DNA of 64,000 nucleotides from Tardibacter chloracetimidivorans (GTDB lineage Bacteria > Pseudomonadota > Alphaproteobacteria > Sphingomonadales > Sphingomonadaceae), in the NCBI RefSeq assembly GCF_001890385.1, contig NZ_CP018221.1, positions 3,087,501-3,151,500 of the forward strand, in the 5' to 3' direction. Below are positions 53,645-59,760 of this stretch, one piece after another. Position numbers and translations under genes: made by a program. Positions within the stretch are counted from its first letter, which is position 1, and each line of letters begins with the position of its first letter. The notes beneath the pieces are model-generated. The model had not been told where the DNA came from, did not search any database, and was given only the letters and a program-made list of their open reading frames with translations.

Positions 53645-54787
53645 ATGAGGATCACTAGCCAGAACATGATCACGGTCGTTCCCACCGACGAAAATCCCAC
53701 GAAGCTGTGGGGCCTTACAACAGCCGAGAGGGTCCGCAGGATCGCCCGCGCCGCGAGCCTTGGCGTGGAAGACCAGCTTCCGGTGGACGGGGCCGTCGTC
53801 CTTGCCAACAACGCCCATGTCTTCGATCCCGGCTGGCTGAAACATGTCGCCGGTCATCCTGGAGAGGTGCTGACGCTGGGCGGTGTCCCCGTCGTCGCCC
53901 ATTGCCGCACGGCCGAGGAGCGCGCGCTGGTGGATGCCGCGATGCGTGAAGGCCGCCCGCTGCCTGCGGGCACGTCGATGAAGGCCATCGCGCATGAAAG
54001 CGGTGTTCAGGCGATCAATTCCGAACTGAGAAAGCGTGAGCAGCCCTTCGCGCTGAAGCTGGAACCGTCGACCGTGCGCGCCGCCGAACGGGCGAGCTAT
54101 TTCGGCGCATACAAGGGCGTGACCGACGTCCTCACCAAATATCTCTGGCCCGAATGGGCGCTGGTCCTCACGCGGCTGGCGGCGCGCATCGGCATGTCGC
54201 CCAATATGGTGACTGCCATCGGGGCCCTGCTCTGCGTGGTCGCAACCGTCGCCTTCTGGTACGGCCATTACTGGTGGGGCATGGCTGCGGGCCTTGTCTT
54301 CATGGTTCTGGATACGGTGGACGGCAAGCTCGCCCGATGCACGATCACCAGTTCCAAATGGGGCGATGTCTTCGATCACGGCATCGATCTCGTGCACCCG
54401 CCCTTCTGGTGGTATGCATGGGGCGTGGGCCTGTGGGCCTATGGCCGTCCGCTCGCGCCCGAAACCTTCGCCCTGGCGCTGTGGGTCATCATCGGCGGAT
54501 ATGTGCTCCAGCGCCTGATCGAGGGCGCGTTCCTGCAATGGTATGGAATGCACATCCATGTGTGGGAAAAGCTAGACTCCGATTTCCGCCTCATCACCGC
54601 ACGGCGCAATCCGAACATGGTGATCCTGTTCGCATCGATGCTGGTCGCGCGGCCGGACCTGGGGCTGGTCGCGGTGGCGGCATGGACGGCGCTTTCGCTC
54701 GTCTTCCACGCGGTGCGGCTGGCGCAGGCCGCCTGGCGGCACCGGCGCGGCAACCCGATCCGCTCATGGCTGGAGCAGGCGGCATGA
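53645..54787 (+). CDS. CDP-alcohol phosphotransferase with degenerate nucleotidyltransferase-like N-terminal domain
   Basis: A 380-residue protein. The C-terminal half has the full CDP-alcohol phosphatidyltransferase motif: Asp223, Asp226, Gly227, Ala230, Arg231, Gly240, Asp244, Asp248 (LDTVDGKLAR then KWGDVFDHGID), with several membrane helices. Residues 1-150 look like the nucleotidyltransferase part of IPCT/DIPP synthase bifunctional enzymes (LTTAERVRRIARAASLGV) but lack the LxxGxGxRL loop. The active nucleotidyltransferase may be the separate protein at 55222-55974. The enzyme would transfer an alcohol phosphate from a CDP-alcohol to a lipid or polyol. An ATG at 53666 is an alternative start. 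Confidence 0.88.
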   Translation: MRITSQNMITVVPTDENPTKLWGLTTAERVRRIARAASLGVEDQLPVDGAVVLANNAHVFDPGWLKHVAGHPGEVLTLGGVPVVAHCRTAEERALVDAAMREGRPLPAGTSMKAIAHESGVQAINSELRKREQPFALKLEPSTVRAAERASYFGAYKGVTDVLTKYLWPEWALVLTRLAARIGMSPNMVTAIGALLCVVATVAFWYGHYWWGMAAGLVFMVLDTVDGKLARCTITSSKWGDVFDHGIDLVHPPFWWYAWGVGLWAYGRPLAPETFALALWVIIGGYVLQRLIEGAFLQWYGMHIHVWEKLDSDFRLITARRNPNMVILFASMLVARPDLGLVAVAAWTALSLVFHAVRLAQAAWRHRRGNPIRSWLEQAA

Positions 54788-55215
54788 ACGACACCATCCT
54801 GAAGTTCGGCTATCCCGCCACCCTCATCCGCGAATATGAACATTGGGTGGTTCTGCTGCGTCCCGCCCAGCTGACGCTCGGCTCGCTGGTGCTTGCCGCC
54901 CGGTCCGACGCCACCGATTTCGGCAGCCTTTCACCCGCCGCCTTTGCGGAGTTGAAGCAGGCGACGGCTGACATAGCGGCCGCGCTGGGCAGCGCCGTGG
55001 CGCATGAGAAACTCAACTATCTGATGCTGATGATGGTCGATCCCCACGTCCATTTCCACGTCTTCCCCCGCTATGAGGGGAGCCGCGACGCGGCCGGCGT
55101 GACGCTGGCCGACCAGAGCTGGCCCGGCCCGCCCGATCTCTCGAAAGGGCGCAAGCTGGAGCAGGGCGAACTGGAGGCGCTGGCCAGCTGGCTGAAAGGC
55201 CATTGGCCCGCCTGA
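54784..55215 (+). CDS. HIT-family protein
   Basis: A 143-residue protein with the histidine triad His88-x-His90-x-His92 (DPHVHFHVFPRY). HIT proteins hydrolyse or transfer nucleotides from nucleotidyl-phosphate conjugates. The ATG at 54784 overlaps the CDP-alcohol phosphotransferase stop (ATGA), so the two are translationally coupled. A longer open frame in the same phase covers the upstream gene and is not coding. A role in turning over CDP- or NMP-conjugates of the neighbouring pathway is plausible. It ends seven bases from the convergent nucleotidyltransferase gene. Confidence 0.9.
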   Translation: MNDTILKFGYPATLIREYEHWVVLLRPAQLTLGSLVLAARSDATDFGSLSPAAFAELKQATADIAAALGSAVAHEKLNYLMLMMVDPHVHFHVFPRYEGSRDAAGVTLADQSWPGPPDLSKGRKLEQGELEALASWLKGHWPA

Positions 55216-55221
55216 CGGGCG

Positions 55222-55974
55222 TCAGCGCGAATAGCGCCCTTCCGCCACCCAGTCGGCCGTCAGCGCGCCGGCGATCTCCAGGTCTTCGGGGAAATCGACC
55301 TCGGCCCATTCCAGCCCCTCGATCGACACGGTGTTCACCGTGCGCTCCTTGGCGATCATGTCGATCGCGCGCAGATACCATCGCTGCACGCCGTCGGGGG
55401 TGCGCATCATCCTTTCCACCTGCTCGCGGAAAATCCGCGGCCCTTCGCCGACGAAGGCCAGCATGCCGATCGATTCGGCATTGGCCTCGCCGGGCGGCAG
55501 GCGCTTGCCTATGGAGATCAGCCGGTCGCCCTCGCGGTGGACCTTCATGTCGTCGCTGTCATAGTCGGGCTTCACGTCGACCGTGACATTGATCGAGCCG
55601 CTCGCCCCGGCGATCAGCCGTCCGACGATTTCGTCGGAGACGATCGTATCGCCGTTCAGGATGATGAAGTCGCGGTCCATGGCGTGCCGCGCGATCCAGC
55701 ATGTGCCCAGATTGTCGGCGACCTTGAAGAAGGGATTGAAGATCACCTCGAACGACGCCCCGCCGATCGTCGCCAGATGCGCTTCCACCACCTCCGTGCG
55801 AAATCCGGTGACGACGGCGATGTCGCGGATGCCGTTCGCCTTCAAGGCTTCGATCTGCCATTCGATCAGCGTGCGGCCGTTAAAGTCGATCATGCACTTG
55901 GGCATGTCCGCGGTCAGCGGAAGCAGGCGCGAGCCCTGCCCTGCGCTCAGGATGATGGCCTTGCTGATCGTCAT
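55222..55974 (-). CDS. Sugar/choline-phosphate nucleotidyltransferase (LicC-like)
   Basis: A 250-residue GT-A nucleotidyltransferase. KAIILSAGQGSRLLPLTADM contains the complete LxxGxGxRL loop, PKCMIDFNGRTLIEWQIEAL follows with the PK motif, and RDFIILNGDTIVSDEIVGRL carries the metal-binding Asp. Resembles phosphocholine or inositol-phosphate cytidylyltransferases rather than RmlA. It would activate an alcohol phosphate to the CDP-alcohol used by the convergent phosphotransferase (53645), whose own nucleotidyltransferase-like domain is degenerate. Monocistronic; the promoter would be in the 170-bp gap upstream. Confidence 0.9.
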   Translation of the reverse strand: MTISKAIILSAGQGSRLLPLTADMPKCMIDFNGRTLIEWQIEALKANGIRDIAVVTGFRTEVVEAHLATIGGASFEVIFNPFFKVADNLGTCWIARHAMDRDFIILNGDTIVSDEIVGRLIAGASGSINVTVDVKPDYDSDDMKVHREGDRLISIGKRLPPGEANAESIGMLAFVGEGPRIFREQVERMMRTPDGVQRWYLRAIDMIAKERTVNTVSIEGLEWAEVDFPEDLEIAGALTADWVAEGRYSR

Positions 55975-56147: not shown

Positions 56148-57305
56148 GTGTTGCGTCCGGGTGCTATCGCCATTGCGAACTATGATTTCCGCTCAAGCGG
56201 GACCGTGGCCAAATCCATAGAAATTGCAACAGCCGCCGTGGAGGCCGGGTTGCCTGCCCAATTGTGGGCGGTTCGAGAGGATGGCCCGTTCAGGGAACGG
56301 GTGCCCGGCAATGTCCCGGTCGTTCAGGTCGGCTCGTCGGCAGCCATGCCCAACCGGGCGATCGACCTGGTCCAGAATATAAGATTCCTCGGATCGGAAA
56401 TAGGTAAAAGGAAACCCGCCGTATTCCTGAGCGGTGGCAACCACATGCACTTGCCTGCGAAATTTGCCTCCCTGCTCAGCGGGCACAGGCAGCGGATGCG
56501 GCTTGGCCTTCGCGCAAGCAATTCCTCGGTGAGGACGGGGGGTGGCAGGCTTGCCGGGCTGTCCCGCCCGACATTGACGAAGTTGAAGTATGACAATGCC
56601 GATTTCGTCGTCGCCGTTTCAAAGGAGCTGGCGACCGAAATCGGTCAGATCGGTTTGGGGGATGTGCAGTGTATTCCTAACGGGGTGGACGTCGCGCGCG
56701 TCCGCCGCATGGCAGCGGAACCGTTCGTTCACCCCTTTCTGACGGAAAAGAACAGGTCGCAGCCGGTGCTAGTGGCTATGGGCCGGATCGCGCATCAGAA
56801 AGGTTTCGATGTTCTCATCCGGTCGCTGGCCTGGTTGAAAGTGAAGTACAAGGCGAAACTGCTGGTCATCGGTCATGGAAGCGCAAAGAATGTCGATCGG
56901 CTTCGGGCTCTCGCTTCAAAGCTGAATCTGTCCGACAGTATCGATTTCCTCGATTATCAGGCAAACCCATTCGCGATCATGAGCAAGGCGGACATGTTCG
57001 TCAGTGCGTCAAGGTGGGAAGGGGCCAGCAATGCCTTGAACGAAGCCCTGATCTGTGGCCTGCCCATCGTCGCCACGGATTGTCCGGCCGGTGTTCGTGA
57101 AGCGCTTGAAGGTGGAAAATTGGGAACCCTTGTGCCGGTGGACGATCCTCGCGCCCTTGCGCGAGGCATCATCGCCGAGCTTGAAATGGATCGCGGACTC
57201 GCGCTCGCCTCGGCCGTGAACAGGCTCGATATTTCATTCAGCCTGTCGTCCTGGGTCGATCTGCTTGCGCGTGAAGTACGGCTGGCGGACGACCAGCCAA
57301 AATGA
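56148..57305 (+). CDS. Family 4 glycosyltransferase
   Basis: A 385-residue GT-B enzyme. GVDVARVRRMAA and LVAMGRIAHQKGFDVLIRSL begin the C-terminal Rossmann domain, and the donor-binding EX7E region appears as SASRWEGASNALNEALICGL. The N-terminal domain carries NYDFRSSGTVAKSIEIA. The GTG at 56148 is the only family-consistent start seen. The stop overlaps the next gene (ATGA). It belongs to a second envelope-sugar locus ending with a flippase at 58375. Confidence 0.92.
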   Translation: MLRPGAIAIANYDFRSSGTVAKSIEIATAAVEAGLPAQLWAVREDGPFRERVPGNVPVVQVGSSAAMPNRAIDLVQNIRFLGSEIGKRKPAVFLSGGNHMHLPAKFASLLSGHRQRMRLGLRASNSSVRTGGGRLAGLSRPTLTKLKYDNADFVVAVSKELATEIGQIGLGDVQCIPNGVDVARVRRMAAEPFVHPFLTEKNRSQPVLVAMGRIAHQKGFDVLIRSLAWLKVKYKAKLLVIGHGSAKNVDRLRALASKLNLSDSIDFLDYQANPFAIMSKADMFVSASRWEGASNALNEALICGLPIVATDCPAGVREALEGGKLGTLVPVDDPRALARGIIAELEMDRGLALASAVNRLDISFSLSSWVDLLAREVRLADDQPK

Positions 57306-58356
57306 CCGCGCCTGCCAAGCGGATCGCCTGGTTTGCGAAACGCTATGATCCCGTCATGGCCAGCATTCGCCTGCGTCTGCTGGGGCCGATGGCCTATCTC
57401 CGGCAATCGGGACTGGACGTCGTCACCTTTTCGTCAGGTGATTGCTGTCGGCATCTTGATGCGATCATCCTCTCCAAGCATTTTTCAGAGGAAGCGATTG
57501 CGGTTGCCCGTGAAATGCGAATCCGGGGGCAGCCGGTCATATTCGATATTTGCGACAACATATTCGAGGGAAAGAAGCGCATCGACAAACAGGCGCGGCT
57601 TGCACGCCTGCGCGAAGTGCTGTCGCTGTCTACGCACATCGTCTATTCAACGCCTGTTCTTGCTGCGCAACTTGAATGTCACACATCGGGCCTCCCGATC
57701 AGCAAATGGGTGATACCCGACCAGATCGACATGCCGCAGACCGGGACGGCTGCCTGCCTCAACCCCGGCGAGCGATACGAGTTGTCCCGCTGCGCGCTTT
57801 CGTCGCCGCCCATCCCGAAGCACTGCATTGCGTCTGGTTCGGCAAGAGCCAGGGCAATATGGCAGGCTTTTCACATCTTGATGCCGCGGTCGTCCATCTC
57901 AGACATTTCGCACGGCACAGGCCGGTGACATTGACCTTTATCAGCAACTCGCGTCTCAAATATCTGAAGGCCAGGCTGGGGTGGCGAGGGGTTCCAACCC
58001 ATTACATGCCCTGGGCGATGAACAGCTTTTACGAGGCGCTCTCCGTCCACGATGCCGCAGTCATACCCGTAGAACGGAACGGCTATACAATCGGGAAGAC
58101 CATCAATCGGCCCGCCACTGCGATCTTGGCCGGACTGGGTGTCATAGCGGATTCGATCGACGCTTATGAAGAGCTGCGGCCGTTCATAGCATTGGACGAT
58201 TGGCAGGGAGGGCTAAGGCGCTACTCCGCGTGCCCGCCCGCGGGCGACCTGCTTCTTGACGCGGCAAGGTCTCACCTCAATCTGCGCTACAGCGCCGACG
58301 CTGTCGGCAGGCAATGGCATGAATTGCTCCAGCAGGCGCTTGCCCAGACCGCCTGA
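57302..58356 (+). pseudogene. Frameshifted glycosyltransferase-like gene
   Basis: Two overlapping frames together resemble one GT-B-like glycosyltransferase. The first (57302-57928) carries KRIAWFAKRYDPVMASIRLR through WVIPDQIDMP. The second (open from 57676 to the stop at 58356) carries LHCVWFGKSQGNMAGFSHLD and GVIADSIDAYEELRPFIALD, a C-terminal Rossmann half. A shift of -1 (or +2) is needed between about 57740 and 57800, consistent with loss of one base, for example in the C4 run at 57762-57765. It starts by ATGA overlap with the GT4 gene. A sequencing error would give the same picture. Confidence 0.72.
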
Positions 58357-58374: not shown

Positions 58375-59760
58375 TCAGCCGGCCTGCAAAGCCGCCCGCT
58401 TGGCGGCCCTGCCCATCAGCAGAAGCCCAACGACCGCAACGGCCAAAGTGGCTATCGCCGCCCCGATGGTGCCGAACCGGGGGAGCAGGATCGTCAATAT
58501 GACGACCAGCAGCACCGCGTTGAACAGGCGTATTTTGACCGACCAGTTCATCCGCCCGGTCGCCATCAACAGCGGTTCATAGGTAACCCCGATGAGGTCG
58601 ATGGCGGCGGCGATACCGAGCAGCACCAGCAGCGGATAAGCGGCCTCATATTCCGGCCCGGCAAGCAGCAGAAGCAGCGGCTTGCCGATGAAGACGACGA
58701 TTATCGCTATCAATATGCCGGTTATGATCGCGAGCAGGCTGGCGCGGCTGAACAGCGCGCGCAGGCTTTCGGCATCGGCATTGGCGCGCACCTTGACCAG
58801 TTCGGCGAAGATCGACTTGGAAAGCAGGCCCGCGATCTTGGTCAACGAAGCGCTCAACTGGTTGGCGAGGCGATAGAGGCCCGCACTTGCAGGGCCGACG
58901 AAGCCCCCCACCAGCAAAACGGCGAGGTGGCGGGTTGCGCCGCTCACGCTCGTGCTGATGTTCGTCGCGACCAGATAGCGGAGTATTTCCGGCTGATCGT
59001 GGCGCGCCGTCAGGAAGCGGCGGCCGCTCAGCCTTCCCGTTCTTTCCCGAATGGTCTTGAGCGCGAGATACCAATAGGCGACAGCGCACAGCAGTTCGGC
59101 GCCCGCCCATGCAATCAGGAAGCCGCTGATGCTCGGTCCTGTCAGCCAGACCGCCAATGCGCCGATCATCCGGCCGACCGGCACCATCGTTTCGGCAAAT
59201 GCACCGGCGTCGAACCGGTCGAACAGGCGCAGAATGCCGGTCGGCGTGGACCGGATGGTAAGCAGCATCACCATGCTGAAGAGCGTTGCCTGAACGGCCA
59301 TGTCGTTGGTCAAGCCCAGTTCGGGGCCGAGCAGGAACGCCACGGCCATTGCGATCAGGCTGCCGACAATGGCGCCGCACAGATCAAGTGCTATGCAAAA
59401 GAAAAACAATCGGCCGAACTTTTCATGGTCGCCCGACGGAACATATTCCTGCCCATATCTGACGATGATCTGCCAGGTTTCGAAGCTGATGATGATGCCG
59501 ATGGTCTGGGCGGCGCTTAAAATCAGCGAAAAAAGCCCAAAGCCTACCGGCCCCAGCGTTCGGGTCACAATCGCCAGGTAGAACAGGCTCAGAACGGCAC
59601 CCACACCTTTTCCGGTGAGGAGCCAGCCTGTGTTCTGCAAGATGCTGCGAAGCGAGCTGTTGTCTCGCAGTCCTCTGACAAAACTTGCAAATCTTACCCG
59701 GTGAATAGCCAAACGCCTTCGTTGCACTGGAGAAATTCGGGCTCGCAATAGTCGAGCCAC
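58375..59760 (-). CDS. Second Wzx-like polysaccharide flippase
   Basis: A 461-residue protein of the MATE/MOP polysaccharide-export group with about fourteen helices. ILQNTGWLLTGKGVGAVLSL and VTRTLGPVGFGLFSLILSAA mark the N-terminus, and AGPEYEAAYPLLVLLGIAAA is the late conserved loop. It is convergent with the frameshifted glycosyltransferase (18 bases apart). The substrate is probably a lipid-linked glycan made by the 56148-58356 enzymes, different from the one handled by the flippase at 28479. Confidence 0.9.
   Translation of the reverse strand: MARLLRARISPVQRRRLAIHRVRFASFVRGLRDNSSLRSILQNTGWLLTGKGVGAVLSLFYLAIVTRTLGPVGFGLFSLILSAAQTIGIIISFETWQIIVRYGQEYVPSGDHEKFGRLFFFCIALDLCGAIVGSLIAMAVAFLLGPELGLTNDMAVQATLFSMVMLLTIRSTPTGILRLFDRFDAGAFAETMVPVGRMIGALAVWLTGPSISGFLIAWAGAELLCAVAYWYLALKTIRERTGRLSGRRFLTARHDQPEILRYLVATNISTSVSGATRHLAVLLVGGFVGPASAGLYRLANQLSASLTKIAGLLSKSIFAELVKVRANADAESLRALFSRASLLAIITGILIAIIVVFIGKPLLLLLAGPEYEAAYPLLVLLGIAAAIDLIGVTYEPLLMATGRMNWSVKIRLFNAVLLVVILTILLPRFGTIGAAIATLAVAVVGLLLMGRAAKRAALQAG

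Follow-up and report, generated by a model that had tools for sequence, protein, structure and literature searches.

A probable second-phosphoglycerate module of sphingolipid headgroup synthesis in Tardibacter chloracetimidivorans and the histidine-triad gene that accompanies it

Described headgroup systems and the Tardibacter locus

In Caulobacter crescentus, the genes for the outer-membrane sphingolipid ceramide diphosphoglycerate (CPG2) form the cluster CC_1168-CC_1152 (PMC11324152, PMC12275187, PMC13228409); genetic evidence shows that the lipid depends on cpgA and cpgD (PMC11324152, PMC12275187), CpgD is the proven maker of CDP-glycerate (PMC12275187, PMC13228409), and CC_1166 has been proposed by the Caulobacter authors as a potential sphingolipid flippase (PMC11324152, PMC12275187, PMC13228409). 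Scattered orthologues of the set are described for Sphingomonas wittichii and other Sphingomonadales in PMC11324152, in which the histidine-triad (HIT) gene CC_1157 is treated as unrelated and whose main text holds no multi-genome co-occurrence analysis. Two further systems bear a likeness to the locus studied here. The archaeal and bacterial IPCT-DIPPS fusions and AF2299 (PDB 4MND and 4O6M) carry an extra domain before the CDP-alcohol phosphotransferase, which in 4MND is a nucleotidyltransferase, and the alternative inositol-lipid cluster of Bacteroidetes likewise combines a separate NTP transferase with a CDP-alcohol phosphotransferase but differs in its proposed substrate, inositol, and in having a HAD hydrolase where our locus has a HIT gene (PMC9246714).

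We analysed a 64,000-nucleotide stretch of the T. chloracetimidivorans genome (NZ_CP018221.1, positions 3,087,501 to 3,151,500; 'the window'), in which three adjacent genes are, as judged by homology, the counterparts of Caulobacter ceramide diphosphoglycerate genes, so that the pathway is one already known. The first (53645-54787, + strand, 380 aa) is a cpgA-like CDP-alcohol phosphotransferase gene whose product is 45% identical to Caulobacter CpgA (CC_1159) over residues 20-378; its only Pfam match is CDP-OH_P_transf (PF01066; residues 185-284, 39 bits against a cut-off of 22), and the motif Dx2DGx2ARx8Gx3Dx3D is complete in it and in 40 of 40 aligned orthologues. The second (54784-55215, + strand, 143 aa; PF01230) is a HIT-family gene orthologous to CC_1157 (48% identity), and the third (55222-55974, - strand, 250 aa; PF00483) is a cpgD-like CTP:phosphoglycerate cytidylyltransferase gene with 50% identity to CpgD (CC_1152) over its full length. 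In Caulobacter, the three counterparts are clustered together with spt, cpgB and cpgC.

The ATG of the HIT gene overlaps the cpgA stop codon (ATGA, 54784-54787), as it does in 12 of 26 orthologous pairs, and cpgD runs convergently with only six bases between the stop codons; in relatives, HIT and cpgD were convergent in all 22 loci with both genes mapped, and in 19 of these they lie no more than about 70 bases apart. A sequence-only reading had described a complete CDP-alcohol motif, a translationally coupled HIT gene and a full convergent nucleotidyltransferase, and had proposed a search for conserved neighbourhoods: all three reading frames and the ATGA overlap were confirmed, and the arrangement proved to be kept among relatives. 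Chance neighbourhood was rejected on this conservation together with the co-occurrence described below. Homologues of cpgA were absent from viral contigs.

Further along the window, a CC_1166-like gene of the Wzx/MOP type (58375-59760, - strand; PF01943) probably encodes a sphingolipid flippase, its product being 28% identical to CC_1166 and 33% to the flippase of a Roseomonas sphingolipid cluster; a flippase gene lies near cpgA in 20 loci. Between cpgD and the flippase gene is a GT4 glycosyltransferase gene (56148-57305, + strand; PF13692/PF00534), whose homologues are near cpgA in only few other loci and whose tie to the lipid is uncertain. It is followed by a glycosyltransferase-like gene (57302-58356) seemingly split into two overlapping frames (57302-57928 and 57676-58356), which appears to reflect either a frameshift or an error in the sequence. 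The operon for ceramide synthesis (spt, acp, cerR and aasR) starts less than 0.2 kb beyond the window end, about 8-16 kb from the trio.

CpgA, HIT, CpgD, the flippase and the ceramide synthesis genes spt, acp, cerR and aasR are shared with the Caulobacter cluster, whereas in Tardibacter they stand in two nearby blocks and the HIT gene overlaps cpgA instead of coming after a metallophosphoesterase gene. The order in C. vibrioides DSM 9893, whose locus was found via the published cpgD primer (PMC12275187; the gene ends EAEAV, fitting the reverse primer) and whose genes were named by order and homology to the published cluster, is flippase, aasR, cerR, acp, spt, cpgC, cpgB, cpgA, phosphoesterase, HIT, lptF, lptG, cerS, CC_1153 and cpgD. 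A tblastn search against plasmids placed homologues within clusters annotated for sphingolipids in Roseomonas and Diaphorobacter, alongside genes for a fatty acyl-AMP ligase, an acyl carrier protein, a serine palmitoyltransferase-type aminotransferase, lipid-kinase-like and LptF/G-like proteins, a HIT protein and a member of the 'phosphocholine cytidylyltransferase family'; a related gene set is on a Pseudomonas plasmid. The earlier view that the genes belong to no described pathway is overturned by the Caulobacter requirement for cpgA and cpgD (PMC11324152, PMC12275187), the HIT gene alone staying undescribed; nor is the rearrangement peculiar to this genome, a loopless CpgA with a separate nucleotidyltransferase being found family-wide and in Caulobacter, Roseomonas and Diaphorobacter.

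Taken together, the trio is very probably the module that adds the second phosphoglycerate in the synthesis of bacterial sphingolipid headgroups. Orthology, active-site identity, co-occurrence and linkage to the ceramide operon were observed and make this the best explanation, within which we infer the reactions in this organism, the role of the HIT protein and the acceptor. CpgD (55222-55974) would convert CTP and 2-phosphoglycerate to CDP-glycerate and pyrophosphate, and CpgA (53645-54787), in the membrane, would transfer phosphoglycerate from CDP-glycerate to the headgroup of a phosphosphingolipid with release of CMP. The CpgA N-terminus would be the relic of a fused cytidylyltransferase whose CTP-binding loop was lost and whose activity the separate CpgD would have taken over; the HIT protein may act on the same nucleotide-linked intermediate, either by degrading surplus CDP-glycerate or by removing a CMP adduct, and export of the lipid would fall to the flippase (58375-59760).

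The two domains of CpgA

The N-terminal 150 residues or so of CpgA have no Pfam match, and a profile search of the PDB with CpgA gave matches that begin near residue 120 and lie mainly over the CDP-alcohol domain, the N-terminal domain being covered by none. A single-sequence AlphaFold model reached a pLDDT of 40 and was unusable, so the N-terminal fold is judged from profile links only. These run through CAPi, a paralogue encoded elsewhere in the genome: CpgA matched CAPi with 99.8% probability over 314 columns, N-terminal part included, and the N-terminus of CAPi matched a true nucleotidyltransferase with 89% over residues 20-111, beginning just past the missing loop. For residues 1-150, which the earlier reading had proposed to compare with nucleotidyltransferase folds, the outcome is mixed, this two-step link standing against a direct comparison of CpgA with the neighbouring nucleotidyltransferase that gave 7.5%, too weak alone.

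The GxGxR loop was present in 0 of 40 CpgA and 0 of 11 CAPi sequences, compared with 30 of 31 and 8 of 8 in two sets of separate nucleotidyltransferases, the single exception among the 31 being a truncated alignment row. It is not hidden upstream of the cpgA start, because the reading frame has just 382 codons between stops and no room for an added N-terminus. We therefore consider that residues of about 20-150 are, in all likelihood, a loopless nucleotidyltransferase relic, which bears out the degenerate nucleotidyltransferase-phosphotransferase fusion of the sequence-only reading. A bifunctional IPCT-DIPPS with an active N-terminal cytidylyltransferase was rejected, the GxGxR loop being found in none of the 40; in the 4MND type the nucleotidyltransferase is annotated as active on inositol-1-phosphate, whereas the CpgA of the window, like that of Caulobacter, has lost the loop and has a separate enzyme instead.

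CAPi belongs to an inositol-type locus (L053 7560-14131; G000:C1 ~316.6-323.1 kb) encoding a nucleotidyltransferase (NTi), myo-inositol-phosphate synthase (MIPS), CAPi, which is itself a loopless nucleotidyltransferase/CDP-alcohol fusion, a second CDP-alcohol transferase (CAP2) and an RND-like protein. In CAPi (L053 9441-10793; alignment A4), GDLEHxxDK replaces Gx3Dx3D, and the standard CDP-alcohol motif was seen in 0 of 11 sequences.

The histidine-triad gene

Among 150 family genomes, cpgA was present in 45 and cpgD in the identical 45, and the HIT subfamily occurred in 40 of these and in 0 of the 105 others; the histidine-triad gene, hitherto called unrelated, accompanies cpgA and cpgD nearly without exception. 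Fisher tests on co-occurrence gave p values no higher than 3e-31 but take no account of kinship, so weight was put on the pattern instead. As HIT is confined to cpgA genomes while cpgB and cpgC are each found in 118 of the 150, it tracks the second step (CPG to CPG2) and not the first. HIT enzymes break or move nucleotide-phosphate bonds, and the window protein has the triad HVHFH, in agreement with HxHxH. The five cpgA genomes without HIT (G023, G039, G063, G107 and G117) all carry a divergent cpgD-like nucleotidyltransferase (36-37% identity), and this would tie HIT to CDP-glycerate itself. Action of the HIT protein on CDP-glycerate is a tentative proposal, with somewhat less than an even chance of being right.

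Slightly less likely still is that HIT is merely a linked housekeeping gene, as the Caulobacter paper assumed. In the Caulobacter data, high cofitness between CC_1157 mutants and the cluster was not seen, and the gene is deemed probably unrelated (PMC11324152); the lack of shared fitness patterns counts against an essential role. The first histidine of the triad, moreover, is not kept in all of 31 orthologues, the second and third being invariant. Against a housekeeping gene stand the confinement to cpgA genomes and the divergent nucleotidyltransferases of the HIT-less ones, the absence of both genes from Z. mobilis (PMC11324152), and four genomes (G010, G030, G048 and G052) in which cpgA is located elsewhere and HIT is still beside cpgD.

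In the aligned cpgD-like nucleotidyltransferase of one HIT-less genome (L044 11252-11953), CTP-site residues are changed, and this enzyme may use another substrate.

Acceptor lipid, CpgD substrate and implications for sphingomonads

CpgB is a ceramide kinase and, together with CpgC, makes CPG, the acceptor lipid. Neither cpgB nor cpgC had a match in this 96.85% complete assembly, in difference from the Caulobacter cluster; the same queries match 118 of 150 relatives, and both genes are present in 44 of 44 other cpgA genomes. Eight relatives have genes of ~346 and ~309 aa lying divergently beside cpgA, which in one locus (L038) are CpgB and CpgC. CC_1153 was likewise not found in this genome by one search, run without a positive control. 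The genus is represented by this genome alone. The simplest answer is an assembly gap; with the two genes absent the organism may make no CPG, the usual acceptor, and if the absence is no gap, CpgA must use another acceptor.

A trio that works as in Caulobacter but extends another lipid, for example inositol phosphoceramide from the MIPS/NTi/CAPi locus, is unlikely. That locus is present in the genome and conserved (homologous loci L110-L119), could supply an inositol lipid here and is a candidate for the missing inositol phosphoceramide pathway; Novosphingobium acidiphilum makes inositol phosphoceramide although no known cluster has homologues in it (PMC9246714). Close CAPi homologues are also over-represented where cpgB and cpgC are missing (6 of 11 against 26 of 139; Fisher p ~0.013, uncorrected for kinship). 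However, cpgB and cpgC are adjacent, so that one gap in the incomplete assembly could hide both, four other genomes combine cpgA, a close CAPi, cpgB and cpgC, and the sphingolipid product of the inositol locus is itself only putative. Less probable again is the fuller version, in which the acceptor decorated by the trio is not CPG but, say, inositol phosphoceramide, so that the product would be a mixed inositol-phosphoglycerate sphingolipid, and in which HIT is an unrecognised CDP-glycerate enzyme.

Returning to the phosphoglycerate module, we compared the cytidylyltransferase of the window with the CTP and phosphoglycerate contacts of CpgD named in PMC12275187 and PMC13228409, the latter drawing on CpgD structures. 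Residues G12, R16, K26, N90, T93, N110, G111, D112, M147, K161, S170 and W201 are identical, and the only change is Ala for T88, a backbone contact. Phosphoglycerate is preferred over inositol or choline mainly because these side-chain contacts match CpgD and most are changed in the nucleotidyltransferase of the inositol locus. An inositol- or choline-type headgroup or osmolyte pathway, as first read from the sequence, is very improbable and was rejected on these residues, for although among solved structures LicC, a phosphocholine cytidylyltransferase, comes closest to the window enzyme in sequence, and a separate inositol locus exists, the CpgA and HIT orthologues are located in phosphosphingolipid clusters and none of the examined neighbours is an inositol or choline gene; the lipid headgroup in that reading was right, its type wrong.

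The anionic sphingolipid CPG2 aids the survival of Caulobacter when LPS is lost and adds to its polymyxin sensitivity. Some sphingomonads have no LPS and rely on sphingolipids, so the distribution of the module matters. The pathway itself being known already, the value of the finding lies in the HIT association and the acceptor question: knowing which sphingomonads hold the second-phosphoglycerate module with HIT directs attention to an enzyme that may be missing from the pathway as described, and a genome in which cpgB and cpgC were not found lets one ask what else CpgA accepts.
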